Shown here in pieces: positions 13,451-54,260 of a stretch of DNA of 57,129 nucleotides. The stretch is taken from assembly GCA_017401985.1 (NCBI GenBank), contig JAFPNK010000063.1:1-57129 (forward strand). The letters run 5' to 3'. Position 1 is the stretch's first letter. Every line of letters begins with the position of its first letter. The translations under genes and the position numbers were made by a program. The notes beneath the pieces were generated by a model, which was given only the letters and a program-made list of their open reading frames with translations, made no database searches and was not told where the DNA came from. The DNA comes from Paludibacteraceae bacterium. Lineage in GTDB: Bacteria; Bacteroidota; Bacteroidia; Bacteroidales; Paludibacteraceae.

Positions 13451-16400
13451 CTACCATAAGGACTGTGTGCGGGGGTTAGCCACTTTCTGGCCGGCAGCGT
13501 TGTACCACTCATCGTTGATGATGATGTACAGGTTGTCGTTGATAATGACTTTGCGAGCTCCCTTACCGTCGGCATTAACGATATCGATATCCTCATGCGC
13601 GTCGTAGATAGTGAGCGTGTGAATGAGCACAGTGGAGCACTGTGTTCCTTGTACCGCTACGGTATCCACATAGACTCCCTTCTCGGTGCCGGCAGCATAG
13701 TAAATCGGAGCCTGACCGACTACATACGGGTGCTGCGGATCCTCGTAGGTGTACGGCAGTTCGTTCAGCTCAACGCGTTCCTCGACGAAGATGGTATCTT
13801 CGGAGCCCTCCACGTAGGAGACAATGAGGGTCTCGATACTGTCACAACCCAGCGAGGAAACGAGTGTATCCGTATAGAGACCGGCACGATTATACGGTTT
13901 GTCGTTCCACATATAGGTCTCACCCGGGCATATGCTGACGAGTTGTTCCTCAGCATAAGTTCTCGGAGTGACGAAGAGGTTGAGCGTAACGATACTGTCA
14001 CAACCGTGTACAGACTCCATCTTACGGCGGTAAACACCTTCCTGCGTCTTGTCGTGGAAGTTCGCATCGGTATAGGTGTCACCCTCACAGATGGTGTCGC
14101 TATAGAACACTTCCGTAGCCGGATAAACCTCCACTTCGAGTGAGTACACTAAGTCACGTGCACCGGCTTTCGCCTCTTCGTCCGAAGCGTAGTTGCTCTT
14201 CGGATAGATATGAATACCCGGTTGGGTCGTCTCGCCAGGAAGGACGATGTCTCCAATGACGATATCCTCGTACTGGCAGCCGGATGCGTGCTCGATCTCC
14301 TTATCGAAGTACGCGAGGCGCACGTTGTCCACGTGAACAGCGATACCGGTGTTCAAACTGGTCTTCGCCTCACGATAGAGACCGATGCGGACGTTCTTGC
14401 CGGCATAAGCAGCCAGGCTGAGACGTACGTTCATACCGGTAGCCGGGATGTCACGAAGTTGCTGTCCTACCGCGTTGGTATTCTGCCACTTAGCGATGAT
14501 GTTCTCGCTCTTCCACGTAGCACCGCCATCCTCGGATACCACAACCATGAAGTAGTAGTCGTTGGCCATGTCGCTCTCCGAGACGGCAGCACCCGTAGCC
14601 GTATGAGTGGTGTTGAGTGCCGTGAGTGCCAGATCCATCGAGAAGTGTACACTATCGTTCTCCGGCAGGTAGATGGCAGGGGTGATCATCCAGTTGTAGT
14701 CCAAATAGTAACCGGCGGATGTATAGTGCGAGCCGGTCAGACCGTAATCGTTGGTGATACGCTTGAATCCATAGGAGTTATCGGTTGTAGAAGTAGCTAC
14801 GTTATGGTCAAGGATATCATCCGCATGACTGCTGGAGAAGATCCACTCCGAGGTACTTACCGCCGCGTTGAACGGTTCGTAATAGTACGGGCTGATGAGC
14901 GTCTTGAAACTCTCTTTCTTCGCGAAGTCGCTCTCGCCCTGGTTACCGCTGCAGATCGCTTGAACACGCCAGTAGTAGGTGGTCTTCTGCTCGAGTCCGG
15001 TCACGGTATAAGGCACAGCATCAATCGTTTCGTTGAACGCGAAGGCGTCTTCGTCCGCGAAGTACTGATCCTCGGATACCTGGAGGACGTAGATGGAGTC
15101 TCCGCCTTGCCAGCTGAGGGTAGCATCTACCGCTCCGAGACGCGTTACCGTGAGCTCGGTCGGCGCTTTGCAGTCCTGACGATGCTCGAAGGAGATATCA
15201 TCAATCCAGATATAGTCGCTGTTCTGACGCGTATCCGCACCCTTCGCATAGAACGAAGTCATGAAGGCTACATACGGACCGGTAGCACCCGCCAGTTCCA
15301 CTTTCATCTGTTGGTACAGATAATGGTTGCCGGCTGTCGCTTCATCGGCGGTAGAGAGCGTACCCTCATAGGTGACGGTGTCGATAGCCACGAACGTAGC
15401 GGCATCCGTCGGGTCGGTCATGGTACCTACGATGATGGACTTGGAGTAACTGCTACCTGTGTAGGAGACAGCCACTCTGTTGTTCGAACGGCGGATATAA
15501 GCCGGACGGATCCAGAAGGATACCTGGAGCGTGTCATAGGACGTGATGTCCATAGCCGGCATTGCGATATACGGCTGGTAGGACGTGCCATACGAGCTGT
15601 AGGAAGCACGCATAGCTACGGCCGTAGAGTCGGTGCGGCTATACGCGTAGTTCTCGGTGTTGGACTGGTTCTGCGGGTCGTAAGTGGCGTTTTTCCATTC
15701 GCCCTGGATAGCATCGCCATAGGTCCAACACATGGTCTGCAATGCCGTCGTCTGGCCCTCGATGAACGCGGAACCTTCCTGTGCCTCAAAGCCGCAGGTA
15801 TAATCCGGCGCGATAACCACACAGTCGGTGTGGAACTCGAGCACCGTCGTCTCCGGCGAGTTGTTGGTCAGATCGGTCTGGTAAACATACCACTGGTAAG
15901 CCGTACCCGGAACGAGGTCTGACAAGGTATAGGAAGTTGCGTTGATCGTATCGCGCAGCAACTCTTCACCGGCTGCGTTGAGCAGTACCACTACAGACGA
16001 CAGTTCCGGATGACGTACCTCCCAAGAGAGGACAGCCGAAGCGGATGTGATGTCCGAAGTGAGGGCTCCGACAGGCGCAAAGAGTGTGTTCGCTGCCGAC
16101 TTGACACTCAGGTCATCGAGGAAGAAGAGACCCGGAGCCGGCTGGAAGAGGACGATGTATTGTCCCTGTGCACCGGCCAACGGCGCCTGCATTTTCTCCC
16201 AGTACTTCAGACCGGCAGGATCGTTATTGACATTATCGTACGAACTGAGGTTCGTCTGACGGTAGGTCAGCGTATCCAGTACCTGGAGGGTCGAGAAGTC
16301 ATTCGGGTCGGTCAGTGTACCAACTACCATCGAGTGGCTATAAGCAGCACCGAGATAGTTAGCACCCACGATCTTGCCTTGGTTGCTCGTCGTTTCGTAC

Positions 16401-19400
16401 TCGTCGTCATAGTTGACGAAGCAGCGTCCGTAGAACTCAACCATCATCGTATCGAGGTTGCAGTTCAATGCCGGCAGCACGAGATACGAGGTCAAGTAGT
16501 TCGAGGTCGTATGTACGCGCAGCGCCGATGAGTTGTCACGGCCTACCTCGTAGTTCGCATAGCTATTACCGCTGATAGCGGACGAATAGTAGTCGTAACC
16601 CTTACGCTGTACGAGCCACTGGTAACCGTTCACCGGCGTCTCGTAGGTAATACCAACGTTGAAGCAAGCGGGTTTGAGATAGAGCGAGTCACCGGAGCCC
16701 GAGAGGATGTCATTGGCTTCCCACTCGTTCTCGGAATCAAAGTCCCAAGTGAAGGCACCATTCTCATCCGGTTCGAGTGCCTGGCAAACGGTACGGAAGG
16801 AGAGCTTGGACGTAACGACATAGTCGGTCTTGCTCGGTGCGTTCGCTGCGGTCAGTACCACGGTGTAGTCCGAACGCGGCGAGAGGTTGTTCACGAGTTG
16901 CGAAGTGGTGGTGAGGTTGGTGTATTGCATAACCGGATCACCGTTCACATCGAGAATATCGAGGTTCCACGGGCCACCGATGTTCTGCCACTCTACGAGC
17001 GCAGTGGTACCGTTGAGCGGCGTCACTTTCTCGAGGTTAACCAGACTGTATCCCTTCGCCTCGCCGAGTGTTACATCGTCGATGTAGAGGTATGTGGTCA
17101 GCGACGGCTGCTTCGGCGCATGGATAACCATCTGTTTGTCCGCCATCGTTGCAGAGTCAAGATCCAAGGTATAATAGCTGTAGAGGTAGTGGTTATCCTC
17201 CTCAGCTGCCTCCTTGGTATCCAATTTATCCAAGCGGATAGCTACGAGCGGTTCGTAGGTATCGAAACTACGGTTGCGATCCACGGTACCGATTTCCAAG
17301 ATAGCGTCTGCAGAAACGGCAGGTTGCATAGTCAGCGCCGATATATAAGCCGGGCGCACCTTCAGTTCGAAGGAACGAGCCTGCGCTTGATCGATAGCCG
17401 GGAAGATGACGTATGCGCCGAAATAGTTCGCCGACGAGGTCATCGACAGCGCACCGGTACCCGTATGCGAGTAGAGGTAGGCTGTGGTGTTCTCCAAGCT
17501 GTACGGATAATAGTTATAGGACGAAGACGTAGCGCCGAGCGTGTCACGATCTGCTACCAAAGCCGGGTGGATGTAGTAGTTGTCACTCGTGGAGTTCGTA
17601 CTGCGCTCCCACAGTTCGGTCTTCTCGAAGCCGAAGAAGTAATCTTGCTTGAAGAAGAAGTTGGTGTGTACCTTGAGCGGGTTCTTGGTCCAAGCACTAT
17701 TGCCCAAAGCGCCGCCACAAATGGAACGCGCATAGACATTATAGGTAGTGGCCGATGCCAGATTCGAAATGGTGACGAAGTTGGTATCCACACGCAGCTT
17801 AGCGGACGTAGTGTCGAGATACTTATTCAAGTCACGAATCTTAGTCAACTCAGACTCAGAGATCACGACGATATCCCACAGGTCAGCGTCAGATGTTATC
17901 TCCACCTCTGCGGCGCTCGCAGAAGTCGTCACGGTTTTGAGTTTCGGAATATGACATCCGGAGATGAGGTTCAGACCGATATTAGTGATATAGAGGTCAT
18001 TGGATGTACCACCGGACTGGAGACCGGAGGTGAAGACCAGACGGTCATAAGCCAGGTTATAGTCACCGAGGTTCACCTCAAAGCGCTGGAACTCCGAGCC
18101 GCTGAGTGCGAACGAAGCAGCCTGCACAAACGTAGTCGGGTCTTCCGGATCAGCCATGGTACCCATGTAGAGGGTAGCGCTGGATGTAGCACCACCGCCA
18201 TAGGTACGAGCTTCGAAAGAAGCCTGGAGGTCAGACAGGTTCGCCTGAACGGCCGGCACTACGATATATCCGTTGTTACCGGAACTGGTGGTGTAGAGGT
18301 CGATAGCGTGGATCGTTTTTCCTTCGGAAGTGGTCGGCGCTTTGACCTTGGTCCAGCTCGAACCACGGAAGATCCAACAACCCGGATCGACATCATCTAC
18401 CTCATAGCTCATAAAGTCCTCGAAGAACGGCAGAGGTACACCTCCGGAAACCGGACAAGTCGTACGAACCGATGCGTAGAGCAAAGATATATCGGTGCTG
18501 TCGCCATCATCGCAAATACCCTGTGCATACACATAATAGGATGTAGCCGGCAGGAGGTTGGTTAAGCGAACGCGGTCCGCATGATCCACGATAGAATCTA
18601 CCAGATAGGAGTAGTCCGCTTTCTCGTCATCCGTCAAGGCCTTATCCGCTACCAAGAGGCGGTAGGTAGATTGATAACCCTTCCAGCTAACGACAGCCGA
18701 GTTCTCGCCTACACTGTCCACCGTAAAGGAAGAAACAGGACGGCAGCTCGGGATGAGCGTTACAGAGATCTCGGATATATACGCATAGTTGGTAACACCA
18801 AACTCAGAGAGGAATATGATGTTCGTACCCATTTCGCCCATATAGTCACCGGCGTAATTCTCAAATCCGACGCTATACGGTTCATAACCGGTATGGCTGA
18901 GGTTGATGGTATCCACCGGCACGAAGGTGTTCAGGTCACTCGGGTCACTGATGATACCGACGATGATCTGACTGTTGTAGGAGGTGGAGGTATTACCACG
19001 GCCCCAGAAGTTAACTTGATACTTGTTAATCGAATCAACGAACAACTCCGGCATAATAGCATACGCACCTACGTAGTTGGAAGTGGTACCATATACGTAG
19101 TCATAGATATAGAGGTAGTTATGTCCGTTGTGCATATAGGTCGATGTCGTTCCGACCGATGGAATATAACTGGAAGTGGCACTCAAGCCCGGTGTTTTGC
19201 TACCATAGGTCCAACAAGGCAGATTACGGTTGCTCGTACCCGTAACATAGCCCTCCTCCGTAGAGAAGGTGATGGTACCCATAGAAGCCGGCTTCAAAGC
19301 CAAACACGGCGTGGTGAAGGTGATCGAACTCCATTGCGAAATGACAGAGTCACACGACGAAGCGGTATAAACGTAGTATTTGGTCTGCTCCGAGAGGCCG

Positions 19401-22400
19401 CTTACGCGTTTCGAACGGGTATCGATGGTGTCGTAGTAAACCACGTAATCTGCCGGCACACGATAGGTCGATGACAGCAGCGAATCGGTATTGAGTTCGT
19501 GGTTGGAGATCAGCAGCAACCAGTCGTTATCCACACGCAGACCACTGCTGATACGTACCGTTTGCGCCGTCAGATCCGAATAACTCGGCTTGGTGAACGG
19601 ACAGTTCATCTTCATGATCGACACATCGTCCAGATACAGCGAACTATAACTGCTGGAAGTCAGATACGGTGTACGCCAAGCGAAGTACTTCGCCGTAGCC
19701 GGAATGAGTGCCTCGTACTCACTCAGATCGTAAGTATAGGCCTCACTGTTTCCGGTTCCCTTGACAGAGTCAAGCACAACGAAGGTGCTCAGATCCGTCG
19801 GGTCGCTCATCACACCGCATACCCACGAGTAGGAAGAGGAAGCGTACATATAGAACGTAACCGCCAACTCCTTCATGTGGTCGATGTCAATCTCAGGCGA
19901 AACGACATACGCCGGACTGGAGGTTGTCGAATAGCCGTACATATGATACGACTTCGAACCGGAATTGGAATAGGACGACGAGTTATAGATGTACGGCAGA
20001 TACGAGGTCGATGCATTCGCATTACGGTTACCGGTCGTCCAGCACTGTGCTTGATAATTCTCGCTATATGAAGAACCGCCGGCATAAGACTCGAAGGTCT
20101 CTTTGTTCGGTTGGGTCGGATCCATCTTCTCGCACGCCGTCTGGATCGGATCTACCGTCCATACACTATCGCCGCAAAGAGCGCGGATATAGACATAATA
20201 GGTAGATATCGGTTGCAGGTCCTCAACATGGAAGGTGCGACCGGTGAAGACGGTGTCGTTGATGATCGCCACAGTCGCCGTATCGTAATTGCCTGCAGCC
20301 ACTTTGTCCAGCGCCACATTCTTGTTTAGGATACGGAGCTCCCACTGGTCGTTGGTGGTCAAGCCATCCCAAGCGAAGTCCACCGAGTGCTCGTCCTCAT
20401 TGGTCTGGCGGAAGTTATACGCCTCCAGACAGGTAGCGTCGCGCAGTTCGATGTTATCAATCAGCACATCGCTCGCGCCCGACATACCGGACGAGAAGGC
20501 GATCTTATCATACGCCAGGTTGTAGTTGCTCAACAGGAGTTTCACTTTCTGGAACTCTGTTCCACCCGTGTTGCGGATGGTGTCAAACGGAACGAACGTA
20601 CTCTGGTCATCTATGTTATCCATCGTACCGACGTAGAGCACGGATGTAGAAGTAGTACCCGAGCTCCACGAACGGGTCTCGAAGCACAACATCATCGTGG
20701 AGAGATCACCCTCAATAGGCGGCATGATCGCCACGTTACGGTGCGTCGTACCGGTGGTCCACAACTCTAATGTCTTACCGCCATTTGCGCTATAGATCAA
20801 CGGATAACCGGAACCCAGATAATCGACCATCTGCCAGCAACCCATCTGCGAAGTAGCGACACCTGTAGAATAGCTCTCGAAGGTCTCTTTATACGGGAAG
20901 CTTGCGTTCGGGCAAGGCGTTGAGAACGGTAGTTCGGTCCACCAAGCAGCGTCTCCGTTGCAGACCGTACGGATGTACATCACGTAGTCGGTCTGGTCTT
21001 TGAGGCCACCGATACCGAACTCCGGATCATCATGCTCATCGCCCATCCAAACAAGCGTATCGGCAAAGACCACTTTACCCAAACGAGCGATCTCCTCGAA
21101 GGTCTTGTCTTTCTCCGCTACCGTCAAGGCAGAATTCTTCACAATAGCTACCTCCCAGTAGTTCTGCGATGAGGCCGCCCAGGTTACCGTGACGGAATCG
21201 GACATCGCATCCAAAGCGATACTCTGAGGAGGAGCACACTCCGATACATGCTCTACGCGCAACTCATCAATATAATTGATGGTATTCTCTGCCATCGCAC
21301 GTACATCGTCCCAAACGATAGCGATGACGCCGTCCTTCGGGCCGGTATACGTCTTGAAGTTAGCGTAGCACATGGTATAACCGTCAGCAGTCAGCGTGAA
21401 GCTGGCCACCTTATGGAACGTATTGATATCCATCGGGTTGGTCATCACGCCGAGCGTAGCATGCGCTTTCTTGTAGGTGTTCGCGCTGGCTCCACCGCTG
21501 AGGTAGAACTTCACCTGTACACTATCCAGATCTTCCACCATCGGCAGGGTGATCCATGCATCCGTTCCGGCTACCTTGTCCATATACAGGCACTGGCTGC
21601 CTTTGAACTTGTTGGTCGTGGTGAGCGACGGGTATTTGGCGTCGTTACCAAAGAGGTTAACGCGCTTAATCTTCTGCTCAAAATCCACAACATACGGCTC
21701 GGTACTCATCGTGTCGAGCGTCACAAACGGATAGCGATACGACCAGTCGGCACCTACCGCCTGCACATAAGCATAATATGGGTGGTTGTTCCAACCGTGG
21801 TAAGCCTCGAGCGAATCGGTACGATACGAATTCGTAGTCACCGTAGCCTGATCGACAATAGCTGCCGGATCGGGGTTAGCGGGGTTAACTTCCGCATTGG
21901 TAATCAGCACGTTATACGATGCCGCATTCCCCTCCCACTCGATGGTAGCAAAGGTATCACGCGGGTTGACGCTGATTCGGGTCACTTTCTGAACCTGCGG
22001 GATATACTCGATCGAAACATTATCGATATAGAAGAGGTTCTGACGGTCGAAATCACTCACGAAACCGATGTATGCGCCGTTACCGGTATAGGAAGACAAC
22101 TCCACGATATTCTCCTGGAACGCCTTGTTTCCCCATACGGTCACGGTATCAACCGGAACGAAGGTAGTGATATCATCCGGATCGTCCATCACACCCACGA
22201 TCAGACCACGACCGTACTGACGGCCGACATAGGTGTAAACGGTACTCCAGAAATGCACCTGACATCTGTTGATAGCAAAATCAGGATTGAGGGTATCAGC
22301 CAAGGCCGGTGTAGCTACAAAAGCATACTTACCGGCTGTGATCGGCGCACCCACTACAATCTTTCCGCTGGAGTTCAAACCGGAGAAAATAACCGCTGAA

Positions 22401-23440
22401 GTGGTATCGTTGGAGTACTTTGCCAACTCGGACTTACTGGTTACTTTCGAGTTCACCCACGGCGTCAACGCCGTAGCGCCTACGCTGTTGTGCCAAGTCC
22501 ACTCGGGATCCTGGCTCTGGGTTTTTGGGTACGCAAAACGCTCCGTGAACGGCACCTGCTTGGTGGCACGTACGCGGAAATGGTACGGCAGTCCTTCCGT
22601 CTCCTCACTGCTCCAGAGACTAATCTCGTTCTCGCATATGGAGCGGATATAGACGTAGTACTCCTCGCCCGATTCAAGGGTGAGGTCGTAGTTCTGCTGC
22701 AATCCATTAACCAGTCCGTGGAAGGTCAGGGTCGAATCCAACTCCTCCGTGATCTCATACGGATTGATCGTATCTTTGGACACAATTAACTCGAACTGCA
22801 CAGCATCCCAACTGGCCGCCCATGCAATGTTCACGCGGTTGGAGCCCTTGTTGCTGACAAAGATGTCATGGGGCACGGTACACTCAGGCGCCGAACGCAG
22901 TTTGATGCTATCCAGCACGATACCACGGCCCAGGTTATCCGAGCCCTCGAACGCGATCTGATACACCGGACCTACTTCCGGTAACTCCAGCGTCACTTTC
23001 TGCCAATTGGCCATAGCGTTGCTGTACTCAGCCAACTGTTTCCATTTGGCATTCAGACCGGTACGATACAACACGCGCAAGGTATCGCGGTCTGCCGCCC
23101 ACTTGGGGTTCGCATACCAGAAGATCAACTGAGGCTGGTACACTTTACGCGGACTAAGGTCCATCGCCTTACTTACCAAACGGGTCTTATAGCCTTGCGT
23201 TTCACCGGTAGTGTTACGCAGATAAGCACGCTTTGTACCTTGCTTCACCGTTCCCGGCCAAGACAAACCGTCCTCCACATCTTCTACAGCCCATGCCGTG
23301 TGGCCCGTCACATACTCTTGCGTCCACACACTGTCCTGAATACCATTCTCAAAGCCCTCATCAATAATAATTGTTTGTGCATTGAGACTCATTACCGTAG
23401 CCAAAATGGCTACTAATAACATGAGTAAATGTTTCTTCAT
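13451..23440 (-). CDS. Giant secreted adhesin, 3329 aa, with about eleven choice-of-anchor-J-like modules and GCDS repeats
   Basis: Residues 1-21 are a signal peptide (MKKHLLMLLVAILATVMSLNA). Modules opening with GFE/TFES/DFE and an aromatic (jelly-roll, cleaved-adhesin-like) start near residues 22, 300, 583, 850, 1113, 1390, 1670, 1933, 2232, 2550 and 2853. They are separated by FN3 domains. Many modules carry MxDPxDxxTFVxxDT, which also recurs in the 2515-residue neighbour. Near residues 3113-3210 are two copies of the Bacteroidota secreted-protein repeat CEGDTY / CPGETY ... GxY ... GCDSI.TL. The C-terminus (KVIINDNLYIIIND, WYNAAGQKV) matches the tail of the smaller giant, plus ten extra residues. 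It is a single-gene transcript. Surface adhesion after type IX export is inferred; the ligand is unknown. Confidence 0.88.
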   Translation of the reverse strand: MKKHLLMLLVAILATVMSLNAQTIIIDEGFENGIQDSVWTQEYVTGHTAWAVEDVEDGLSWPGTVKQGTKRAYLRNTTGETQGYKTRLVSKAMDLSPRKVYQPQLIFWYANPKWAADRDTLRVLYRTGLNAKWKQLAEYSNAMANWQKVTLELPEVGPVYQIAFEGSDNLGRGIVLDSIKLRSAPECTVPHDIFVSNKGSNRVNIAWAASWDAVQFELIVSKDTINPYEITEELDSTLTFHGLVNGLQQNYDLTLESGEEYYVYIRSICENEISLWSSEETEGLPYHFRVRATKQVPFTERFAYPKTQSQDPEWTWHNSVGATALTPWVNSKVTSKSELAKYSNDTTSAVIFSGLNSSGKIVVGAPITAGKYAFVATPALADTLNPDFAINRCQVHFWSTVYTYVGRQYGRGLIVGVMDDPDDITTFVPVDTVTVWGNKAFQENIVELSSYTGNGAYIGFVSDFDRQNLFYIDNVSIEYIPQVQKVTRISVNPRDTFATIEWEGNAASYNVLITNAEVNPANPDPAAIVDQATVTTNSYRTDSLEAYHGWNNHPYYAYVQAVGADWSYRYPFVTLDTMSTEPYVVDFEQKIKRVNLFGNDAKYPSLTTTNKFKGSQCLYMDKVAGTDAWITLPMVEDLDSVQVKFYLSGGASANTYKKAHATLGVMTNPMDINTFHKVASFTLTADGYTMCYANFKTYTGPKDGVIAIVWDDVRAMAENTINYIDELRVEHVSECAPPQSIALDAMSDSVTVTWAASSQNYWEVAIVKNSALTVAEKDKTFEEIARLGKVVFADTLVWMGDEHDDPEFGIGGLKDQTDYVMYIRTVCNGDAAWWTELPFSTPCPNASFPYKETFESYSTGVATSQMGCWQMVDYLGSGYPLIYSANGGKTLELWTTGTTHRNVAIMPPIEGDLSTMMLCFETRSWSSGTTSTSVLYVGTMDNIDDQSTFVPFDTIRNTGGTEFQKVKLLLSNYNLAYDKIAFSSGMSGASDVLIDNIELRDATCLEAYNFRQTNEDEHSVDFAWDGLTTNDQWELRILNKNVALDKVAAGNYDTATVAIINDTVFTGRTFHVEDLQPISTYYVYIRALCGDSVWTVDPIQTACEKMDPTQPNKETFESYAGGSSYSENYQAQCWTTGNRNANASTSYLPYIYNSSSYSNSGSKSYHMYGYSTTSSPAYVVSPEIDIDHMKELAVTFYMYASSSYSWVCGVMSDPTDLSTFVVLDSVKGTGNSEAYTYDLSEYEALIPATAKYFAWRTPYLTSSSYSSLYLDDVSIMKMNCPFTKPSYSDLTAQTVRISSGLRVDNDWLLLISNHELNTDSLLSSTYRVPADYVVYYDTIDTRSKRVSGLSEQTKYYVYTASSCDSVISQWSSITFTTPCLALKPASMGTITFSTEEGYVTGTSNRNLPCWTYGSKTPGLSATSSYIPSVGTTSTYMHNGHNYLYIYDYVYGTTSNYVGAYAIMPELFVDSINKYQVNFWGRGNTSTSYNSQIIVGIISDPSDLNTFVPVDTINLSHTGYEPYSVGFENYAGDYMGEMGTNIIFLSEFGVTNYAYISEISVTLIPSCRPVSSFTVDSVGENSAVVSWKGYQSTYRLLVADKALTDDEKADYSYLVDSIVDHADRVRLTNLLPATSYYVYAQGICDDGDSTDISLLYASVRTTCPVSGGVPLPFFEDFMSYEVDDVDPGCWIFRGSSWTKVKAPTTSEGKTIHAIDLYTTSSGNNGYIVVPAVQANLSDLQASFEARTYGGGATSSATLYMGTMADPEDPTTFVQAASFALSGSEFQRFEVNLGDYNLAYDRLVFTSGLQSGGTSNDLYITNIGLNLISGCHIPKLKTVTTSASAAEVEITSDADLWDIVVISESELTKIRDLNKYLDTTSAKLRVDTNFVTISNLASATTYNVYARSICGGALGNSAWTKNPLKVHTNFFFKQDYFFGFEKTELWERSTNSTSDNYYIHPALVADRDTLGATSSSYNYYPYSLENTTAYLYSHTGTGALSMTSSANYFGAYVIFPAIDQAQARSFELKVRPAYISALTMQPAVSADAILEIGTVDRNRSFDTYEPLVAIRLDKLDTKEAAEEDNHYLYSYYTLDLDSATMADKQMVIHAPKQPSLTTYLYIDDVTLGEAKGYSLVNLEKVTPLNGTTALVEWQNIGGPWNLDILDVNGDPVMQYTNLTTTSQLVNNLSPRSDYTVVLTAANAPSKTDYVVTSKLSFRTVCQALEPDENGAFTWDFDSENEWEANDILSGSGDSLYLKPACFNVGITYETPVNGYQWLVQRKGYDYYSSAISGNSYANYEVGRDNSSALRVHTTSNYLTSYLVLPALNCNLDTMMVEFYGRCFVNYDDEYETTSNQGKIVGANYLGAAYSHSMVVGTLTDPNDFSTLQVLDTLTYRQTNLSSYDNVNNDPAGLKYWEKMQAPLAGAQGQYIVLFQPAPGLFFLDDLSVKSAANTLFAPVGALTSDITSASAVLSWEVRHPELSSVVVLLNAAGEELLRDTINATSYTLSDLVPGTAYQWYVYQTDLTNNSPETTVLEFHTDCVVIAPDYTCGFEAQEGSAFIEGQTTALQTMCWTYGDAIQGEWKNATYDPQNQSNTENYAYSRTDSTAVAMRASYSSYGTSYQPYIAMPAMDITSYDTLQVSFWIRPAYIRRSNNRVAVSYTGSSYSKSIIVGTMTDPTDAATFVAIDTVTYEGTLSTADEATAGNHYLYQQMKVELAGATGPYVAFMTSFYAKGADTRQNSDYIWIDDISFEHRQDCKAPTELTVTRLGAVDATLSWQGGDSIYVLQVSEDQYFADEDAFAFNETIDAVPYTVTGLEQKTTYYWRVQAICSGNQGESDFAKKESFKTLISPYYYEPFNAAVSTSEWIFSSSHADDILDHNVATSTTDNSYGFKRITNDYGLTGSHYTSAGYYLDYNWMITPAIYLPENDSVHFSMDLALTALNTTHTATGAAVSESDMANDYYFMVVVSEDGGATWKSENIIAKWQNTNAVGQQLRDIPATGMNVRLSLAAYAGKNVRIGLYREAKTSLNTGIAVHVDNVRLAYFDKEIEHASGCQYEDIVIGDIVLPGETTQPGIHIYPKSNYASDEEAKAGARDLVYSLEVEVYPATEVFYSDTICEGDTYTDANFHDKTQEGVYRRKMESVHGCDSIVTLNLFVTPRTYAEEQLVSICPGETYMWNDKPYNRAGLYTDTLVSSLGCDSIETLIVSYVEGSEDTIFVEERVELNELPYTYEDPQHPYVVGQAPIYYAAGTEKGVYVDTVAVQGTQCSTVLIHTLTIYDAHEDIDIVNADGKGARKVIINDNLYIIINDEWYNAAGQKVANPRTQSLW

Positions 23441-24022: not shown

Positions 24023-24057
24023 TTTCAAATTTTTGATTTATAATTTATGATTTATTA
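24023..24057. repeat. Heptanucleotide repeat array between gldJ and gcvH
   Basis: Five 7-bp units on the plus strand, of types TTTCAAA, TTTTTGA, TTTATAA, TTTATGA and TTTATTA. The last unit contains the gldJ stop codon. Two unit types are identical to those at 2142-2176. Confidence 0.8.
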
Positions 24058-25858: not shown

Positions 25859-26584
25859 GTGAAAGCGCAAATAATGGCCATTGGCAACGTGACGCCGGAT
25901 AGTTTCTATGCGGCCTCGCGTTTGCAGGAAGAGTCCCGGGTGGTTGCCTGGGCGCAAGAGGCGGTAAGGCAAGGTGCGGATATATTGGATATCGGTGCTT
26001 GTTCGACCCGTCCGGGCAGTATGCCGGTGGAAGAAGCGGAAGAATGGCGTCGTTTGGCACCGGCCTTGAAGGCCATTCGGGAAATGCTACCGGATGTGCG
26101 TTTATCGGTGGATACGTTTCGTCCGAGCGTCATGGAGCGAGCGCTCAATGAGTTCGGACCGATGATGATCAACGATATCTCCGGAGGATGTGAAGCCATG
26201 TATGCGCTTGCGCGCAACTATCGCGTGCCGTATATATGGACACTCCGAGGGAATCTGGAACTGCCTGCGCAGCATCCGGAACTGCAGGACTTGGACTTGA
26301 TCTTGGATCCCGGATTCGGGTTTATCGGCAGTGTGGAAGCGGATTATCAGTGCATGCGGCAGATGGAACACTTGCAACAATACCACCGACCGGTGTTAGT
26401 GGGTGTGAGTCGTAAGTCGATGCTCTGGAAACCGCTCGGTCTTCGTCCGGATGACTGTCTGTCCGCCACACAGGTGCTCCATTTTTATGCGCTGCAACAC
26501 GGAGCGACTATTTTGCGCGTACACGATGTAGCCGAAGCGGTACAGACGATACAACTATACGAGCGTCTGACCATTAACCATTAA
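25859..26584 (+). CDS. folP: Dihydropteroate synthase
   Basis: 241 aa. It joins p-aminobenzoate to the pterin pyrophosphate in folate synthesis. Family motifs in order: NVTPDSF near residue 10, DIGACSTRPGS (family DIGGESTRPG), SVDTF, MINDISGG, LDPGFGF, VGVSRKSML with the pterin-binding lysine, and LRVHDV at the C-terminus. It is somewhat shorter than the usual 260-280 residues because the N-terminus begins almost at the first motif. The GTG at 25859 lies right behind the promoter. An ATG at 25873 (MAIGNVTPDS) is a possible alternative that would leave a leader of about 14 nt. The stop codon is inside a 7-bp repeat array and cdaA follows 18 bp later. Confidence 0.93.
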   Translation: MKAQIMAIGNVTPDSFYAASRLQEESRVVAWAQEAVRQGADILDIGACSTRPGSMPVEEAEEWRRLAPALKAIREMLPDVRLSVDTFRPSVMERALNEFGPMMINDISGGCEAMYALARNYRVPYIWTLRGNLELPAQHPELQDLDLILDPGFGFIGSVEADYQCMRQMEHLQQYHRPVLVGVSRKSMLWKPLGLRPDDCLSATQVLHFYALQHGATILRVHDVAEAVQTIQLYERLTINH

Positions 26585-26605
26585 TCATTAAATAGTAATA
26601 TAATG
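26571..26605. repeat. Heptanucleotide repeat array across the folP stop and cdaA start
   Basis: Five 7-bp units: CCATTAA twice, then TCATTAA, ATAGTAA and TATAATG. The second unit provides the folP stop and the last ends in the cdaA ATG. The array also encodes the final TINH residues of FolP. Confidence 0.8.
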
Positions 26606-32905: not shown

Positions 32906-33649
32906 ATGAAAAAGACTCTTCTCTTCGTTCTCACACTTAGTGCAACGATGGTGTTTCAGGCTTGCCATAAGCCTCAGCAAGTGATCGGTGTCACGACAGA
33001 AGCTATTGCTATTGACGCATCCTTGGATTCGATTCAAGACACCACCTACCTGGCTCAATTAGCTCCTATTCAAGCCGATTTGGCACGCGAGATGGACGTA
33101 CAGATCGGTTATGCACCAGAAGATCTGTATGTAGCCGGACCCGAGTGCCCGATGCTCAACTGGGCCAGTGATGCATTATGGGAAGCAGCCAAGAAACTAT
33201 ACGACGGTCAAGTAGATATCGCTATTGTGAATATGGGAGGTATGCGCTGTGCATGGCCGAAGGGCCCCATCACTCGAAGAAGCGTATTTGAATTGATGCC
33301 GTTTGACAACCGTCTGGTTGTATTGACGCTAAAAGGATCGGACATCATTGACTTATGCCAATCGTTCGCCCAATACGGAGGACAAGGTGTAGCCGGCATG
33401 CGCGTCAAGATTGTTGACGGACAGTTGGCCGACGTGCAAGTAGGAGGCAAAGCGATTAATCCGGAGGCGCTCTACCATGTAGCCACCAGTGATTATCTGT
33501 CCGGAGGAGCCGACCACATGGATGCGCTCACACGGTACTCGGAATTATGGGATAGCGATGCGCTGATCCGCGATCTGTATCTAAAGATTGTTAGTGAGCA
33601 GGACACCGTCCGGTCCGCAGTGGATGGACGCATGACCATGTATCCATAA
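32906..33649 (+). CDS. Orphan 5'-nucleotidase C-terminal domain lipoprotein
   Basis: 247 aa from the ATG at 32906; the longer frame from 32885 adds residues overlapping psuG. The signal peptide ends MVFQAC, with likely lipidation at Cys20. The mature part is the C-terminal substrate-binding domain of UshA-type 5'-nucleotidases: CPMLNWASDALWEA, VDIAIVNMGGMRCAWPKGPITRRSVFELMPFDNRLVVLTLKG, and YHVATSDYLSGGADHM. The N-terminal metallophosphatase half is absent. In many Bacteroidales the two halves are encoded by neighbouring genes, but no metallophosphatase is next to this one here. Its place behind psuKG suggests nucleotide salvage in the periplasm. The last 69 bp overlap the convergent LD-carboxypeptidase gene. 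Confidence 0.85.
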   Translation: MKKTLLFVLTLSATMVFQACHKPQQVIGVTTEAIAIDASLDSIQDTTYLAQLAPIQADLAREMDVQIGYAPEDLYVAGPECPMLNWASDALWEAAKKLYDGQVDIAIVNMGGMRCAWPKGPITRRSVFELMPFDNRLVVLTLKGSDIIDLCQSFAQYGGQGVAGMRVKIVDGQLADVQVGGKAINPEALYHVATSDYLSGGADHMDALTRYSELWDSDALIRDLYLKIVSEQDTVRSAVDGRMTMYP

Positions 33650-34450
33650 TGGCATATTGTGCTCCACATGCCCTATCGGGGCATCGAAAATGACAGGGTA
33701 GTTGTAATCAGCAACTACCTTTTTTATGGTCTGATAGACAGAGCAGGACATAGACGGATCATCTTCGCAATCAGAGAACTGGCCGACAATCAATCCACTA
33801 AGATGTGCTAACACCCCACTCATGCGCAGGTTACGCATCATGCGGTCAATATGATAATGCCGCTCCGCTATGTCTTCTATGAGTAGAATGGGGAATTGAT
33901 AACTGAACTTATGCAGTCCGTACGGCGTGCCTTGCAGTCCGTACAGCACCGATAAGTTACCTCCCACTATCGGTGCGCAGGCATCGCCCATTTGATTGAG
34001 CGGATGATTGGCCCATTGATAGGTCAACGGTTCCCCCGCCAAAGCCTTACGAAGAGCCATTATGGGTTCGCTATTCTCCGGAAGGGTCGCAATGTGTTTG
34101 CACATGATACCATGCAGCGAAGCTTGCCCGGATAGACCGGAAGCCTGGTGGAGTTCGGTGATATCGCTGAAACCGACTATCGGTTTGTTGATCGCCGGCA
34201 CTCTGTCTATGATACGCTGCAAGCCATACCCGCCACGTGAGCAGAGGATGATATCCACGGTGGGATCGTTCAATGCTTCTGCTATATCCGACAGTCTGTC
34301 TTCATCCGTTCCTGCAAATCGTCCCCATGTGTCGCGTGCGTGCGCGCCCTCGCTCACTATATACCCCCACGCGCGCAGACGCGAGGTAGCGCCATCGATA
34401 TATGCGGGATCTATGGCTCCGGAAGGGGAGATGATTCGAATCTGTTTCAT
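33581..34450 (-). CDS. ldcA: LD-carboxypeptidase (peptidase family S66)
   Basis: 289 aa, about the family length of 300. It cleaves the terminal D-Ala from murein tetrapeptides in the cytoplasm during peptidoglycan recycling. The N-terminal ISPSG, LCSRGGYG and the nucleophile Ser in VGFSDIT are visible. GGNLSVLYGLQGTPY follows, then the catalytic Glu in LLIEDI and His in GHVEHN. It is last of a four-gene operon and its ATG overlaps the dehydrogenase stop by 4 bp (ATGA), so translation is likely coupled. The C-terminal 22 codons overlap the convergent nucleotidase gene. Confidence 0.92.
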   Translation of the reverse strand: MKQIRIISPSGAIDPAYIDGATSRLRAWGYIVSEGAHARDTWGRFAGTDEDRLSDIAEALNDPTVDIILCSRGGYGLQRIIDRVPAINKPIVGFSDITELHQASGLSGQASLHGIMCKHIATLPENSEPIMALRKALAGEPLTYQWANHPLNQMGDACAPIVGGNLSVLYGLQGTPYGLHKFSYQFPILLIEDIAERHYHIDRMMRNLRMSGVLAHLSGLIVGQFSDCEDDPSMSCSVYQTIKKVVADYNYPVIFDAPIGHVEHNMPLWIHGHASIHCGPDGVLLTNNL

Positions 34451-35232
34451 GCGTACACCTTATACTCTAACCAGTTCACCAAGCGCTTAGGAAGGATACG
34501 GTCGAGGAAACACAGTATTCGATAACTGAATCCTCCCACATACTGCGGTTTGGGGCTTCGGCAGGTAGCGATGCGGTAGAACAAGCGCGCCATCTGCACC
34601 GGAGACATTCCACCCCGCTCATCTTTCTCCATCGTAGTCACCGCCTTATCCGCTCCACGATACACTTCCGCTCCGGCCGATGACTTACGCCGCGCATCAG
34701 TAAAGCCGGTACTAACATCACCTGGCATCATGACGGAAACCGATATTCCGAATTCCCGCACCTCATTCGCCAATGCCAACGCTAACGCATTGATAGCAGC
34801 TTTAGAGGAGGAATAGAACGATTGGTAAGGAACAGGCAGCGGAGCCGCCACGGAAGAAGTATAGATGATACGCCCTGCGCGTTGCTTCCGCAATTGTGGC
34901 AACACGGCCTGCGTTAGACGGACAGCCCCCATAAAATTGACATCCATCTGTTTCTCCGCTTCCGCTATATCGGTAAACTCTACCGGGCCGGAAATACCGA
35001 AACCGGCATTGGAGATAACCACATCTATATGGTCTGTCTGTGTGAGCACCTGTGCAATGGCGTCACGAGTACTGTCACTATGACACACGTCGCAATTCAC
35101 ATGAATGATACGATCGTGCGACACGCCGTGACGACTAAGTTCAAAAACACGCCAGCCCCGCTCTGCAAAGAGTGAGGCTGTCGCTTTTCCTATACCAGAA
35201 CTACCTCCGGTGATAACTAATACTTTAGTCAT
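34447..35232 (-). CDS. Short-chain dehydrogenase/reductase, candidate 3-ketosphinganine reductase
   Basis: 261 aa classical SDR. The cofactor loop is TGGSSGIG; the Asn motif is SNAGFG; the catalytic Ser is in IYTSSVAA and the catalytic Tyr and Lys in YSSSK. The C-terminal third (about residues 195-261) has basic and hydrophobic stretches (YRIATCRSPKPQYVGGFSYRILCFLDRILPKR) that could associate with a membrane. It follows spt by 20 bp. The second step of sphingolipid synthesis is NADPH reduction of 3-ketosphinganine by an SDR, so this is a good candidate. That is inference from context; generic SDRs look similar. Stop and start codons at the spt junction lie in a 7-bp repeat array. Confidence 0.85.
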   Translation of the reverse strand: MTKVLVITGGSSGIGKATASLFAERGWRVFELSRHGVSHDRIIHVNCDVCHSDSTRDAIAQVLTQTDHIDVVISNAGFGISGPVEFTDIAEAEKQMDVNFMGAVRLTQAVLPQLRKQRAGRIIYTSSVAAPLPVPYQSFYSSSKAAINALALALANEVREFGISVSVMMPGDVSTGFTDARRKSSAGAEVYRGADKAVTTMEKDERGGMSPVQMARLFYRIATCRSPKPQYVGGFSYRILCFLDRILPKRLVNWLEYKVYA

Positions 35233-35255
35233 TAGCTTTTAACCTTTAGCCATTA
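35221..35255. repeat. Heptanucleotide repeat array across the spt stop and SDR start
   Basis: Read on the coding (minus) strand there are five TAA-initial 7-mers, such as TAATGGC and TAAAGGT. The first supplies the stop of spt, the fourth contains the ATG of the dehydrogenase, and the fifth encodes its next residues. Confidence 0.85.
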
Positions 35256-36437
35256 CATCTCCGGTGCTCCTTCACGCAATACACGCGCAATGATTTCCAC
35301 CGCCTCATCAATAACCGGCTCAGTATGGGTAGCCATGAGCGTGGTGCGCAGCAAGCACTCGCCTTCCACGCATGCCGGCGCAATAACCGGATTCACGTAT
35401 ACACCCTCTTCAAACATCTTCTTGCCGAAGTAGAGCGTATCCAATGTCTTGTAGGTAAAGATCGGCACGATAGGAGTCGGAGCCTCGATGATCTTCACAC
35501 CGTTCGCTAACAGTTGTTTCTGGAAGTAGCGCGCGATATTCATCAGACGCGTGGGACGCTCCGGGTCGAGTTGGAGTTGATGCAATGCTTCTAAGGCTGT
35601 AGCAGCCGAACAGGGTGTGATAGAAGCAGAGAAGATGAACGGACGACTCACATGGCGCAACCAATCGGCTACATGATGAGAGGTAAGCATACAACCACCG
35701 ATAGAAGCCAACGACTTAGAGAACGTCAGCATCGTGATATCCACCTTATCCGTCAAGCCGAAGTGCGCAGCTGTACCGCGTCCGCCAGGGCCGAGTACAC
35801 CGAATCCGTGGGCATCGTCCACCATGACGCGAGCGCCGTATTTCTCCGCTAACGCGCATATCTGCGGCAGTTTACAAATATCTCCACGCATAGAGAACAC
35901 ACCGTCGGTGATGATTAACTTACCGGCATTCTCCGGAATCGACTTCAACTGACGCTCCAGATCCTCCATATCCGAGTGACGATAGCGCAAAACTTTCGCA
36001 TAACTCAAACGGCAAGCATCGTAGATAGACGCATGGTTCTCGCGGTCGTTGAGGATATAATCATCCTTACCGGCAATAGCCGAGATGATAGCGAGGTTCG
36101 TTTGGAAACCCGTCGAAACGGTCATACACTCCTCATAACCGGTAAAAGCAGCTATCTCGCGTTCCAACTGCAGGTGTAGATCCAGCGTACCGTTCAAGAA
36201 ACGGCTACCGCTGACACCCGTACCATACTTATCCAACGCAGCATGACCGGCTTTGATCACCTCCTCGTTCTCCGTGAAGCCCAGGTAGTTATTACTACCG
36301 AGCATGATCACGCGGTGATTCTCCATTTGCACGATCGGTGCCTGTCGGCTCTCCAGCTCGTGGAAATAAGGATAGATCCCTAATTGGCGAACATACTTGA
36401 GAGTCTCAAAATGGTCGCATTTTTCGAACAAATCCAT
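35253..36437 (-). CDS. spt: Serine palmitoyltransferase (alpha-oxoamine synthase family)
   Basis: 394 aa, the same length I recall for the Bacteroides enzyme. It condenses serine with an acyl-CoA (or acyl carrier) using pyridoxal phosphate, the first step of sphingolipid synthesis. Motifs are GIYPYFHELES, MLGSNNYLG, KYGTGVSGSRFLNGTLDLH, STGFQTNL, VDDAHGFGVLG, the PLP lysine in TFSKSLASIGG, FIFSASITP, and the C-terminal LRTTLMATHT. The C-terminus matches the Bacteroides type rather than glycine C-acetyltransferase or 8-amino-7-oxononanoate synthase, which are the alternatives. It starts 1 bp after the mdh stop. A reductase follows, supporting the sphingolipid assignment. Confidence 0.87.
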   Translation of the reverse strand: MDLFEKCDHFETLKYVRQLGIYPYFHELESRQAPIVQMENHRVIMLGSNNYLGFTENEEVIKAGHAALDKYGTGVSGSRFLNGTLDLHLQLEREIAAFTGYEECMTVSTGFQTNLAIISAIAGKDDYILNDRENHASIYDACRLSYAKVLRYRHSDMEDLERQLKSIPENAGKLIITDGVFSMRGDICKLPQICALAEKYGARVMVDDAHGFGVLGPGGRGTAAHFGLTDKVDITMLTFSKSLASIGGCMLTSHHVADWLRHVSRPFIFSASITPCSAATALEALHQLQLDPERPTRLMNIARYFQKQLLANGVKIIEAPTPIVPIFTYKTLDTLYFGKKMFEEGVYVNPVIAPACVEGECLLRTTLMATHTEPVIDEAVEIIARVLREGAPEM

Positions 36438-38473: not shown

Positions 38474-38499
38474 GGGTTAGTGAATTAGTGAGTTAGGCA
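38474..38499. repeat. Short 8-bp-period repeat between the radical SAM and glycosyltransferase genes
   Basis: TTAG recurs at 38477, 38485 and 38493, in the context TTAGTGAA, TTAGTGAG, TTAGGCAG. The third copy contains the stop codon of the radical SAM gene. It is like the 7-bp arrays but with period 8. Confidence 0.6.
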
Positions 38500-41189: not shown

Positions 41190-41224
41190 TTTTACTGTTT
41201 AGTCGTTTACCATTTACGATTTAC
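41190..41224. repeat. Heptanucleotide repeat array before dnaG
   Basis: Read on the coding (minus) strand there are five 7-bp units of the form GTAAATC or GTAAATG, becoming degenerate towards dnaG. The first contains the stop of the upstream barrel gene and the array ends three bases before the dnaG TTG. Confidence 0.75.
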
Positions 41225-47716: not shown

Positions 47717-49415
47717 TATCCTGCGCATTCATTTGTAAGGTCGTTCGGCCGCGATAACTATTCTCCTCGAGATAGAAGCATACATCCACCGACTTGCCAT
47801 TCTGCAAGTGGGTCGCTTTTTCGCCTTGTCCGAACGCGATTCCATCCATAGCCACGACGCGATCGGTTAGATCCAAATGGAGGTGTTTGCCATCGCTCAC
47901 TGCTCGCGTATTGCGGTTATTAATCAAATGACGACACAGGAAGAGCGGTCGTTCGTTGCCCGGTCCGAATGGCTCAAGGCACTGCAGGATCTTGTACATC
48001 TTCCAGTTCATATCACTCAACTCCACTTCGGCTTCTATATCCAGCGTCGGCACCTGTTGCTCCGGCGTGATATGAGCGGCAACGTACTCCTCAAAACGAC
48101 GCTGAAACTCCGGTAGATCTTTGAGATGCATACTCAGTCCCGCAGCGAACTTATGTCCGCCGAAGTTCGTCAGCAGGTCACGACAGGAATCGATGGCCGT
48201 ATAGATATCGAAATCACTCACGGACCGGGCGCTACCACTGATAAGATCATCATCCGAAGCCGTCAACACAATCGTGGGGCGGTAATAGGTCTCTGTCAAT
48301 CGGCTGGCTGCTATTCCTACTACTCCTTTATGCCAATCGGGCGAATAGACCACCGTGGTGTATTTGCTTGCATTCAACGGATCTTTTTGCAGTTGCTCCA
48401 AAGCTTCATCCGTAGTCTTGCTGTCATAATCGCGGCGATCCTGATTATAGGAATCTATATCTTGCGCGAAGCGGAAGGCATTCTCCGCATCATCGGTGAT
48501 TAAGAGTCGTACGGCTTCCGCACCGCTTTTGATACGTCCGGCGGCATTGATTCGCGGACCTATCTTATAAACCAGATCACTGATGGTGATGGTCTTACCT
48601 TCTATCCCAGCCACCTTCATGATAGCCTGCAATCCGACGGAGGGTTGTGCGTTCAGTGCCCGCAAACCATAAAAAGCCAAGATGCGGTTCTCACCGGTAA
48701 CAGGCACAATATCGCTGGCGATAGACATCGCCAGCAAGGGGAGTAGGCGATAGACTTCCTGCATCTCCAAGCCACGCCGCTGAGCGTAGGCCTGCGCCAG
48801 TTTGAACCCTACTCCACAGCCGCTCAGTTCTTTGAACGGATAGAGACAATCCGCCCGCTTCATATTCAGCACCGCCACTGCTTTCGGAATGATCGTACCG
48901 GGGGTATGGTGGTCACAGATTATGAAATCCACACCGATACTATTGGCATAATCCATCTTCTCAACCGCCTTGATACCACAGTCAAGTGCGATAACCAAGG
49001 TGCATCCTTTCTCTTTAGCAGTATCTATACCTTTGGTGGAAATACCGTAGCCTTCGGTATAACGGTCAGGGATATAATAAATCAGGTTATCGGTCTGCGT
49101 GCGCAGGAAGGAATACATCAGTGCGACTGCGGTGGTGCCATCCACATCGTAGTCGCCATACACCATGATACGCTCGTTGTTATCTATCGCCTTGCATAAC
49201 CGATCCACTGCAGCTCCCATATCGCGCATCAAGAACGGATCGTGCAAGCTGTCCAGAGAAGGACGGATATAAGCTCGCGCCTCCGCACCGGTTTTCAATC
49301 CTCTTCCGGCCAATATACGGGCAGCCGCCGGACTGATATCCAGTTCGGTGCTCAACCGCTCAGCAGCCTGCTGCTGCTCAGCAGTCAGTTCGCGTATATG
49401 CCAGTTAATATCCAC
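47700..49415 (-). CDS. recJ: Single-stranded-DNA exonuclease RecJ
   Basis: 571 aa, family length. It is a 5'-3' ssDNA exonuclease of recombination and mismatch repair. DHH motifs are YGDYDVDGTTAVAL and FIICDHHTPG, with LDCGIKAVEKMDYA between them and GCGVGFKLAQA after. The DHHA1 domain carries NFGGHKFAAGLSM, and the C-terminal OB fold contains LEPFGPGNERPLFL. The start is a GTG at 49415, one base past the preceding stop codon. It is last of the nfeD-floA-amidase-recJ operon. The C-terminus overlaps prmC by 17 bp. Confidence 0.95.
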   Translation of the reverse strand: MDINWHIRELTAEQQQAAERLSTELDISPAAARILAGRGLKTGAEARAYIRPSLDSLHDPFLMRDMGAAVDRLCKAIDNNERIMVYGDYDVDGTTAVALMYSFLRTQTDNLIYYIPDRYTEGYGISTKGIDTAKEKGCTLVIALDCGIKAVEKMDYANSIGVDFIICDHHTPGTIIPKAVAVLNMKRADCLYPFKELSGCGVGFKLAQAYAQRRGLEMQEVYRLLPLLAMSIASDIVPVTGENRILAFYGLRALNAQPSVGLQAIMKVAGIEGKTITISDLVYKIGPRINAAGRIKSGAEAVRLLITDDAENAFRFAQDIDSYNQDRRDYDSKTTDEALEQLQKDPLNASKYTTVVYSPDWHKGVVGIAASRLTETYYRPTIVLTASDDDLISGSARSVSDFDIYTAIDSCRDLLTNFGGHKFAAGLSMHLKDLPEFQRRFEEYVAAHITPEQQVPTLDIEAEVELSDMNWKMYKILQCLEPFGPGNERPLFLCRHLINNRNTRAVSDGKHLHLDLTDRVVAMDGIAFGQGEKATHLQNGKSVDVCFYLEENSYRGRTTLQMNAQDIKKNE

Positions 49416-49427
49416 TCTAACCTCTAA
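49414..49427. repeat. Two 7-bp repeats at the amidase stop / recJ start
   Basis: On the minus strand TTAGAGG is followed by TTAGAGT. The second copy carries the stop of the amidase gene and its last two bases begin the recJ GTG. Confidence 0.6.
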
Positions 49428-50202
49428 TTTTTACCTCGTATTCGTCCGCTTCTTCCCATTGGGGCAACACTTCGCGGAAATGACGCAGTTTCTCGATAGA
49501 GAAATCCACAATTCGTGTCCCTGCCTCATAATCGTCAAAACCGGCCAGATCGTGCAACCAGGTATCATATGCTACCGAATGACCGACATAGTCAAGTTGC
49601 AATCCATCCGTTCCGACCATATTAACCGCTACCGCATAGCAATGGTTCTCTGCCGCCCGGGCTTGTATCAACGCATCCCAATACTGAATGCGAACGGTAG
49701 GCCAGCATGCGACGCATATGAACAGGTCGTACAAGTTCTGCTTATCCTGCCGTAACCACACCGGGAACCGCAGGTCGTAGCACACGGCAAGCCGTATTTT
49801 CACCCCTCTGAACTCCCATATCGTTCGTTCGTTGCCGGGGGTAAAGAACTCTGCTTCTCCGCCACTTTTATACAGGTGATGTTTGTCGTACCAGGACGGG
49901 TTCTCGTGTGGCCGGAACATGAATCCGCGGTTGTATAACCGGTTTTGCTCTGTGACCATTAACGAACCGACGATCGCCATGTCGTAGGTGTCCGCCATCT
50001 GCTGCAAGGCTTGACAGACCGGTCCAGTTCCCCACTCTTCAGCCAATCCGGGTCTGTCGGTGCAGAACCCGGTGCTGAACATCTCCGGCACCACTGCTAT
50101 ATCCGCTTGTCCGGCAATAGCCCGCAAGCGTTCGTCCAATAAACCTACGTTCGCCTGCGGGTTAGCCCATTCAATCGGATATTGCAACAATGCAACCTTC
50201 AC
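49417..50202 (-). CDS. Nitrilase-superfamily amidase (omega-amidase / YafV type)
   Basis: 261 aa. The catalytic triad is visible: Glu in VVPEMFSTGF, Lys in YDKHHLY and Cys in AVCYDLRFPVW. DALIQARAAENHCYAVAVNMVGTDG is also typical. Members deaminate alpha-keto acid amides such as 2-oxoglutaramate, or related metabolites; the exact substrate cannot be read here. The start is a GTG at 50202 that overlaps the floA end zone within a 7-bp repeat array. It is cytoplasmic. Confidence 0.88.
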   Translation of the reverse strand: MKVALLQYPIEWANPQANVGLLDERLRAIAGQADIAVVPEMFSTGFCTDRPGLAEEWGTGPVCQALQQMADTYDMAIVGSLMVTEQNRLYNRGFMFRPHENPSWYDKHHLYKSGGEAEFFTPGNERTIWEFRGVKIRLAVCYDLRFPVWLRQDKQNLYDLFICVACWPTVRIQYWDALIQARAAENHCYAVAVNMVGTDGLQLDYVGHSVAYDTWLHDLAGFDDYEAGTRIVDFSIEKLRHFREVLPQWEEADEYEVKIRG

Positions 50203-50221
50203 CTTTATCCTTTAGCCTTTT
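50194..50221. repeat. Heptanucleotide repeat across the floA stop and amidase start
   Basis: Read on the coding (minus) strand there are four 7-bp units: AAAAGGC and GAAGGTT flank TAAAGGA and TAAAGGT. They encode the last residues of FloA (KAKG), its stop, and the GTG start and next codons of the amidase. TAAAGGT is identical to a unit at the spt junction and to one inside mrp. Confidence 0.75.
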
Positions 50222-54256: not shown

Positions 54257-54260
54257 CGAA

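Follow-up and report, generated by a model that had tools for sequence, protein, structure and literature searches.

Heptanucleotides are, according to Mrazek (2007) as cited in PMC4679880 and PMC4692102, the most abundant class of long-unit repeats in most genomes, where they occur scattered over lineages. In the excerpts that we draw on here, PMC4679880 also cites from Mrazek (2007) the proposal that slippage is tied to the length contacted by the polymerase, and in both papers the cause of the heptanucleotide excess appears to be proposed yet untested. More specific systems have been described within this broad pattern. Direct repeats of TAACTGA are found in Beggiatoaceae, cyanobacteria, and five Bacteroidetes including Paludibacter propionicigenes (PMC4679880, in excerpt). 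These heptamers lie near start codons, and some overlap upstream stops; in forward orientation they place a stop in each of the three frames. Indels of 7 nt distinguish two closely related Cyanothece strains, and arrays are missing from some relatives (PMC4679880, same excerpt). In the Nostoc trnL intron, the P6b region is composed of the heptamer classes TDNGATT and NNTGAGT, one class repeatedly replacing another at one site (PMC4476775, in excerpt). The heptamers GGGNATC and GGGGAYT of Xanthomonas and Nostoc are of the G-quadruplex type, and intergenic heptamers vary in length and sequence between two Xanthomonas species (PMC4692102, in excerpt). Heptanucleotide excess is known already, and for one fixed unit so are indels of 7 nt that separate close strains (PMC4679880, in excerpt). 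An earlier note on the DNA considered here knew of no description of such repeats in Bacteroidales; this needs qualifying given the TAACTGA heptamers of five Bacteroidetes in the excerpted PMC4679880, and stands for gut Paludibacteraceae, for which the openly licensed papers searched yielded no description of heptamer arrays.

The window is the whole stretch of 57,129 nucleotides that was analyzed, and belongs to a 1.95 Mb assembly (G000) in 121 contigs. By its aminotransferase (93-97% identity), the closest named relatives are assemblies titled Paludibacteraceae or uncultured Bacteroidales, and their record titles name goat, cattle, yak, and deer gut among others. The arrays of the window and the genes adjoining the array at 35221-35255 are as follows.

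2142 to 2176, minus strand: period-7 array, TTTATGA type on the plus strand, directly after an OmpA-family gene (3′ side), with no clear co-directional gene following
24023 to 24057, minus strand: period-7 array after an FGE-sulfatase-domain gene, whose stop it holds, and before the glycine cleavage H gene
26571 to 26605, plus strand: period-7 array, CCATTAA type; within it lie the last codons and stop of a DHPS-like pterin-binding enzyme as well as the CdaA start
33581 to 34450, minus strand: LD-carboxypeptidase (Peptidase_S66); heptamer arrays occupy its loop at about residues 170-194 in some congeners but are absent from that loop in the window
34447 to 35232, minus strand: short-chain dehydrogenase (SDR), 261 aa, the downstream gene
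35221 to 35255, minus strand: degenerate period-7 array, in mRNA sense TAATGGC TAAAGGT TAAAAGC TAATGAC TAAAGTA, holding the aminotransferase stop and the SDR start
35253 to 36437, minus strand: aminotransferase class I/II, 394 aa, the upstream gene
38474 to 38499, minus strand: period-8 array between two co-directional genes
41190 to 41224, minus strand: period-7 array separating dnaG from an outer-membrane beta-barrel gene and containing the upstream stop only
50194 to 50221, minus strand: period-7 array between floA and a carbon-nitrogen hydrolase gene
55562 to 55601, plus strand: period-7 array, AAAGGTG, in frame in mrp, in the linker between the FeS_assembly_P and ParA domains

All eight arrays of the earlier note are present in the window sequence, and seven of them exceed expectation, with P <= 0.0075 against dinucleotide shuffles (any lag 5 to 11) and P <= 0.0053 in a 30-nt context (any lag 5 to 12). 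The exception, 49414-49427 (6/7 matches), does not rise above dinucleotide shuffles (P = 0.058, and 0.36 in its 30-nt context, over the same lags). Lag-7 matches amount to 21/28 at both 2142-2176 and 24023-24057, 17/28 at 26571-26605, 18/28 at 35221-35255, 19/28 at 41190-41224, and 15/21 at 50194-50221, while 38474-38499 has 13/18 matches at lag 8. Tandem Repeats Finder at low threshold reports 2141-2179, 24029-24055, 26570-26591, 38477-38496, 41206-41224, and 50202-50220, and misses the degenerate array at 35221-35255. An extra strong array, absent from the earlier note, lies inside mrp at 55562-55601 (28/33 matches; 55562-55600 by Tandem Repeats Finder).

The placement of the five main arrays at operon junctions does not extend to 2142-2176, which is at no evident operon junction because the ORF that follows on the minus strand (80 aa or longer) lies at 816-1310 and has no Pfam match. 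The co-occurrence of stop and start codons within one array, which had been claimed for three junctions, is borne out in ORF coordinates at 35221-35255 (stop 35253-35255, ATG 35230-35232) and 26571-26605 (stop 26582-26584, ATG 26603-26605), and at 50194-50221 (stop 50205-50207, GTG 50200-50202) provided that the GTG start is right. The start of the glycine cleavage H protein (24017) falls outside the array at 24023-24057, as does that of DnaG (TTG, 41186) outside 41190-41224. Also in the window are very long minus-strand ORFs at 5604-13151 (2515 aa, with fibronectin type III matches) and 13451-23440 (3329 aa), coding repeats at 4106-4335 in the OmpA-family gene with periods from 6 to 93 nt and units that look lysine/alanine-rich, and the sole tRNA gene found there, a tRNA-Pro (cgg) at 54184-54257.

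A scan of intergenic gaps for a seven-base period, the comparison with shuffled sequence that the earlier note had proposed, reveals a clear excess: 8 lag-7 arrays in 15.8 kb of gaps in the window genome against 0.0 in shuffles, and 46 in 89 kb in named relatives against 0.2. At other lags, the window genome and the relatives have, respectively, 0 and 25 gap arrays at lag 11, 0 and 11 at lag 8, 2 and 1 at lag 10, and 0 and 2 at lag 9; lags 4, 5, 6, 12, and 13 give zero in the same gaps of both. With genes taken from our own uncurated ORF calls, lag-7 arrays occur in gaps at 50.5 (window genome) and 51.5 (relatives) per 100 kb, versus 4.3 and 6.2 in coding sequence. Across 1.83 Mb of the genus, defined by leaving out L066 and the other-group loci L068-L070, L072, L073, and L075-L100, exact runs of at least 10 nt number 194 at lag 7 and 54 at lag 11, where a second-order Markov control yields 1 and 3, respectively.

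This excess has a restricted distribution. Array density is about 0.10 per kb in the genus (191 lag-7 arrays in about 1.83 Mb) and about 0.02 per kb in 29 sister genera of the family (15 lag-7 arrays in about 700 kb, in 8/29), and falls to zero lag-7 arrays in 340 kb from 13 genomes belonging to other families of the order (most of lower G+C), in which exact lag-7 runs equal the control (2 vs 2). Within the genus, lag 7 leads over the whole sequence in 5/6 sampled genomes; the exception is G011, where lag 11 is ahead of lag 7 by 6 to 1. G014, G017, and G000, the window's genome, count among the 7-rich genomes. One congener stretch of 19 kb (G058) holds zero lag-7 arrays. The 7:11 mix differs among genomes beyond any of 2000 permutations (195 + 49 arrays in 48 genomes, many with few arrays; L036 and L074, which are one genome, and L038 and G003 were pooled here and in the counts of unit likeness). 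As in G011, 11-nt arrays outnumber 7-nt arrays in L041, L043, L060, L062, and L063, each with only one to three arrays. The arrays thus share with Mrazek-type long repeats a tandem structure beyond composition, 7 nt as the leading long unit (11 in G011), and a concentration in non-coding sequence, yet 84/191 lie in ORF calls. They differ in that the same sites can be tracked across congeners with different units, protein loops included, and in that at least one genome favors 11 over 7.

Comparison of orthologous sites was made between species, with one genome per species. At a strict threshold, seven junctions surveyed over 132 loci contain 25 arrays, 16 of period 7 (0.4 in period-7 shuffles) and 3 each of periods 11, 8, and 15; these counts are low because the threshold passes over degenerate arrays, among them two in the window (35221-35255 and 41190-41224). 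Two of the seven junctions have an array in 0/7 loci at this threshold. Counting all periods, the aminotransferase-SDR junction has arrays in 6/39 loci with 6 different units, and the mdh-aminotransferase (malate dehydrogenase) junction in 10/39 with 7 units. Unrelated units occupy the same aminotransferase-SDR position, namely, ATTGGTA in L074, AATCAGC in L054, and an 11-mer in L036, and the stop-to-start distance there ranges among congeners from overlap to >100 nt (gap lengths tabulated at both junctions include the 3-nt stop codon). At the mdh-aminotransferase junction, stop and start are spaced 1 or 2 nt apart in many species and arrays intervene in others; distances span 1-2 nt to >100 nt, with or without arrays. 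The array common to L023, L037, L044, and L071 looks inherited. DHPS-CdaA gaps run from overlap to 36 nt in closer relatives, with varied short repeats. The alignment of orthologous junctions that had been suggested, carried out here between species, finds arrays that vary, a sister species having no array, another 7-mer, or an 11-mer at the same junction. What is new with respect to the described systems is that many units replace each other at the same sites within one genus while the step is unchanged.

By eye, some long mdh-aminotransferase gaps (L026, L034, L039, and L074) hold one heptamer array in direct orientation and, beyond a spacer, another in inverted orientation, and an imperfect long hairpin is possible there. 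Also by eye, a short repeat with a GACCGCTTCGCTGAC-like core recurs in gaps of L025, L030, and L044 and in frame in the M20-type peptidase loop of L034 and L029; it is possibly a separate small element.

Unit replacement extends into proteins, where three genes were checked by alignment and orthologs without arrays were judged by eye. A loop in the C-terminal domain of LD-carboxypeptidase holds arrays of GTCAAAT, CAATTCT, AATTCAA, TCAGCAG, TCAATTC, or GATTTAA in six species of 29 aligned (four rows were set aside, three on account of their length and one because it has a stop), and is short and plain in many other species, the window included. In Mrp, arrays are located in the linker between the FeS_assembly_P (4-66) and ParA (96-344) domains, where the window has AAAGGTG units and L222 resembles it; the units are AATCGTC in L235, AATCATC/AATCACC in L236, and of the CCAATAG type in L231 and L241. 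By eye, the linker is without array in many of the 27 orthologs read (mrp was looked for on both strands, and 3/30 loci were not found). The third unit of the window's mrp array has the codon TTA where a perfect AAAGGTG array would give TGA. Among nine aligned M20-type peptidases, L021, L031, L032, and L067 bear different heptamers in one loop. Among 70 ORF-internal arrays, some of which may sit in false ORFs, 17 units carry a sense stop versus 39 an antisense stop, a deficit that is as expected if arrays arise regardless of coding and stops are then weeded out. Arrays in coding sequence are tolerated if stops are avoided, and therefore the supply of stops and starts cannot be their general purpose.

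The unit vocabulary is non-random and partly genome-specific. Identical units make up 1.2% of between-genome pairs versus 0.2% with permuted letters, and pairs within one mismatch have a frequency of 0.118 within a genome versus 0.080 between genomes, which 0/1000 label permutations reach (relatedness and linkage being uncontrolled). G or C is confined to one strand in 125/191 units (96 expected, sd 5). The TA-step ratio is 0.59 for 7-mers, which avoid TA, and 1.29 for the TA-rich 11-mers, against a background of 0.83-0.84; the window's own degenerate arrays contain TA. For 22 arrays, units lie no nearer to their own junction's empty orthologs (mean distance 1.52) than to other junctions (1.64; P = 0.20), and with respect to neighboring gene ends the sense strand is closer than the antisense (P = 0.001). 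A direct partner accompanies 15/102 noncoding arrays; an inverted partner within 150 bp accompanies 7/102 versus 3 in the control, and a general hairpin nature is thereby rejected, while individual cases exist.

In the excerpted description, the TAACTGA repeats have one fixed unit; TAACTGA is the consensus of 0/191 units here (9 lie within one mismatch, about 6 expected). As to the forward, stop-bearing orientation upstream of starts that TAACTGA has, the present arrays show a weak bias toward sense stops: stops are sense-only in 35 and antisense-only in 19 of 103 arrays (89 co-directional plus 14 near ORF ends; P = 0.04). Like Nostoc trnL P6b, related lineages have different heptamer classes at the same site, and TDNGATT is over-represented (26/191 units vs 4.5 to 7 expected; 17/170 distinct genome-unit pairs). 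However, P6b is a paired intron stem, whereas the present arrays mostly lack an inverted partner and reside in gaps and coding loops, and most units fit neither TDNGATT nor NNTGAGT, the latter matching only 1/191. The likeness to the GGGNATC/GGGGAYT repeats is in intergenic heptamers that vary in length and sequence among close relatives; the G-tract units themselves are absent bar 1/191 GGGNATC, with GGGGAYT at 0/191.

Most probably, in our judgment, the arrays are the product of lineage-specific, slippage-like growth with a preference for 7 nt, sometimes 11 or 8 nt, and are kept at permissive sites. Such growth would mean that short tandem duplications arise frequently and preferably in steps of 7 nt (11 or 8 nt in some lineages), most likely through replication slippage. 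New units probably copy sequence already at the site, which would explain why the unit differs from site to site while the step is constant. Arrays would survive where they do little harm, in short co-directional gaps, gene ends, and flexible protein loops and linkers, and those reaching a gene end would take in stop or start codons. Because 7 is not a multiple of 3, a unit with a sense TAA, TAG, or TGA gives stops in every frame from three units on. The codons found within arrays have the look of a side effect, not of a switch. Among the possibilities raised in the earlier note, slippage-driven growth is the best fit, one junction's stop-start distance varying from 1-2 nt to >100 nt among congeners. 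Some observations sit less easily with it. Units resemble their own junction's empty orthologs no more than they resemble other junctions. The vocabulary is also more restricted than composition would lead one to expect, and units are somewhat more similar inside a genome, neither of which plain slippage calls for. Furthermore, adding 7 nt inside a coding loop shifts the reading frame, and therefore coding arrays need multi-unit or compensated events. An unlikely alternative is a heritable ruler acting in trans, either a variant polymerase or an enzyme that copies reiteratively, which would place several 7-nt units per event, and 11 nt in some lineages, writing new sequence into junctions and in frame into enzyme loops. 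From the period excess, its lineage distribution, the different units at orthologous sites, and the coding arrays, all observed directly, to any enzyme is a step that we infer. Loss of mismatch repair is rejected as a cause, with a MutS-family match in 61/61 family genomes and MutS1 over the curated cut-off in 56/61, including all four genomes of the genus in that sample. Loss of SbcD is likewise rejected: SbcD is over cut-off in the array-rich window genome, and in 18/61 family genomes, but in none of three congeners sampled.

A role in translation, in which arrays would set coupling or termination at operon junctions through stops in every frame and a landing site for ribosomes that is A/T-rich and unstructured, strikes us as rather doubtful. 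In its favor, the excerpted PMC4679880 proposed a translational role for the TAACTGA repeats. Arrays are also found at 89/1056 co-directional versus 16/309 convergent or divergent junctions in raw counts (9/158 and 7/151, respectively), or 0.88 versus about 0.2 per kb of gap, an excess that is partly due to shorter gaps; stops are sense-only in 35 and antisense-only in 12 of the 89 co-directional arrays, and the surplus of units with a strand free of G or C points the same way. Yet co-directional gaps account for 89 of the 191 arrays, ORF calls for 84, convergent or divergent gaps for 13, and edges for 5, and with so many inside ORF calls they are no dedicated junction device. Moreover, 33/39 and 29/39 congeneric loci have no array at the two best-sampled junctions (at the strict threshold, which misses degenerate arrays). 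Coupling as a general purpose is not supported, given arrays that come and go at one junction, change unit, and sit inside coding sequence; since sense-strand stops are mildly favored at junctions, a small role in termination or initiation may nonetheless exist. Slightly more doubtful still is an origin in tiny heptamer-built mobile elements of several families, some with inverted halves, which would insert at permissive sites and leave the arrays as their remains. The direct array, spacer, and inverted array seen by eye in some gaps (L026, L034, L039, L074) would suit such elements, as would units common to loci beyond composition, more so within genomes, and the whole-region replacement argued for Nostoc trnL P6b in the excerpted PMC4476775; against them, only 7/102 noncoding arrays have an inverted partner (3 in the control), no fixed element ends were noticed in passing, and unit sequences differ at orthologous sites. 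A single mobile short repeat, a mobile repeat being another option of the earlier note, does not fit on the same account of differing units, though the vocabulary is non-random. Chance in A/T-rich gaps or an assembly artefact is very improbable: the arrays are short and the window's assembly is fragmented, but shuffles yield essentially none, arrays recur at orthologous sites in separate assemblies, and the 13 genomes of other families, most with lower G+C, have none at lag 7.

This genus provides many sister species with the same junctions and protein loops, array-bearing or not, and genomes favoring step 7 or 11. What sets the step is testable, because the replication and repair genes of 7-rich and 11-rich lineages can be compared within the genus. 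Were the ruler to exist, its length would be a lineage trait able to switch within one genus. The arrays in coding sequence suggest, finally, that repeat growth is a route for rewriting enzyme loops.
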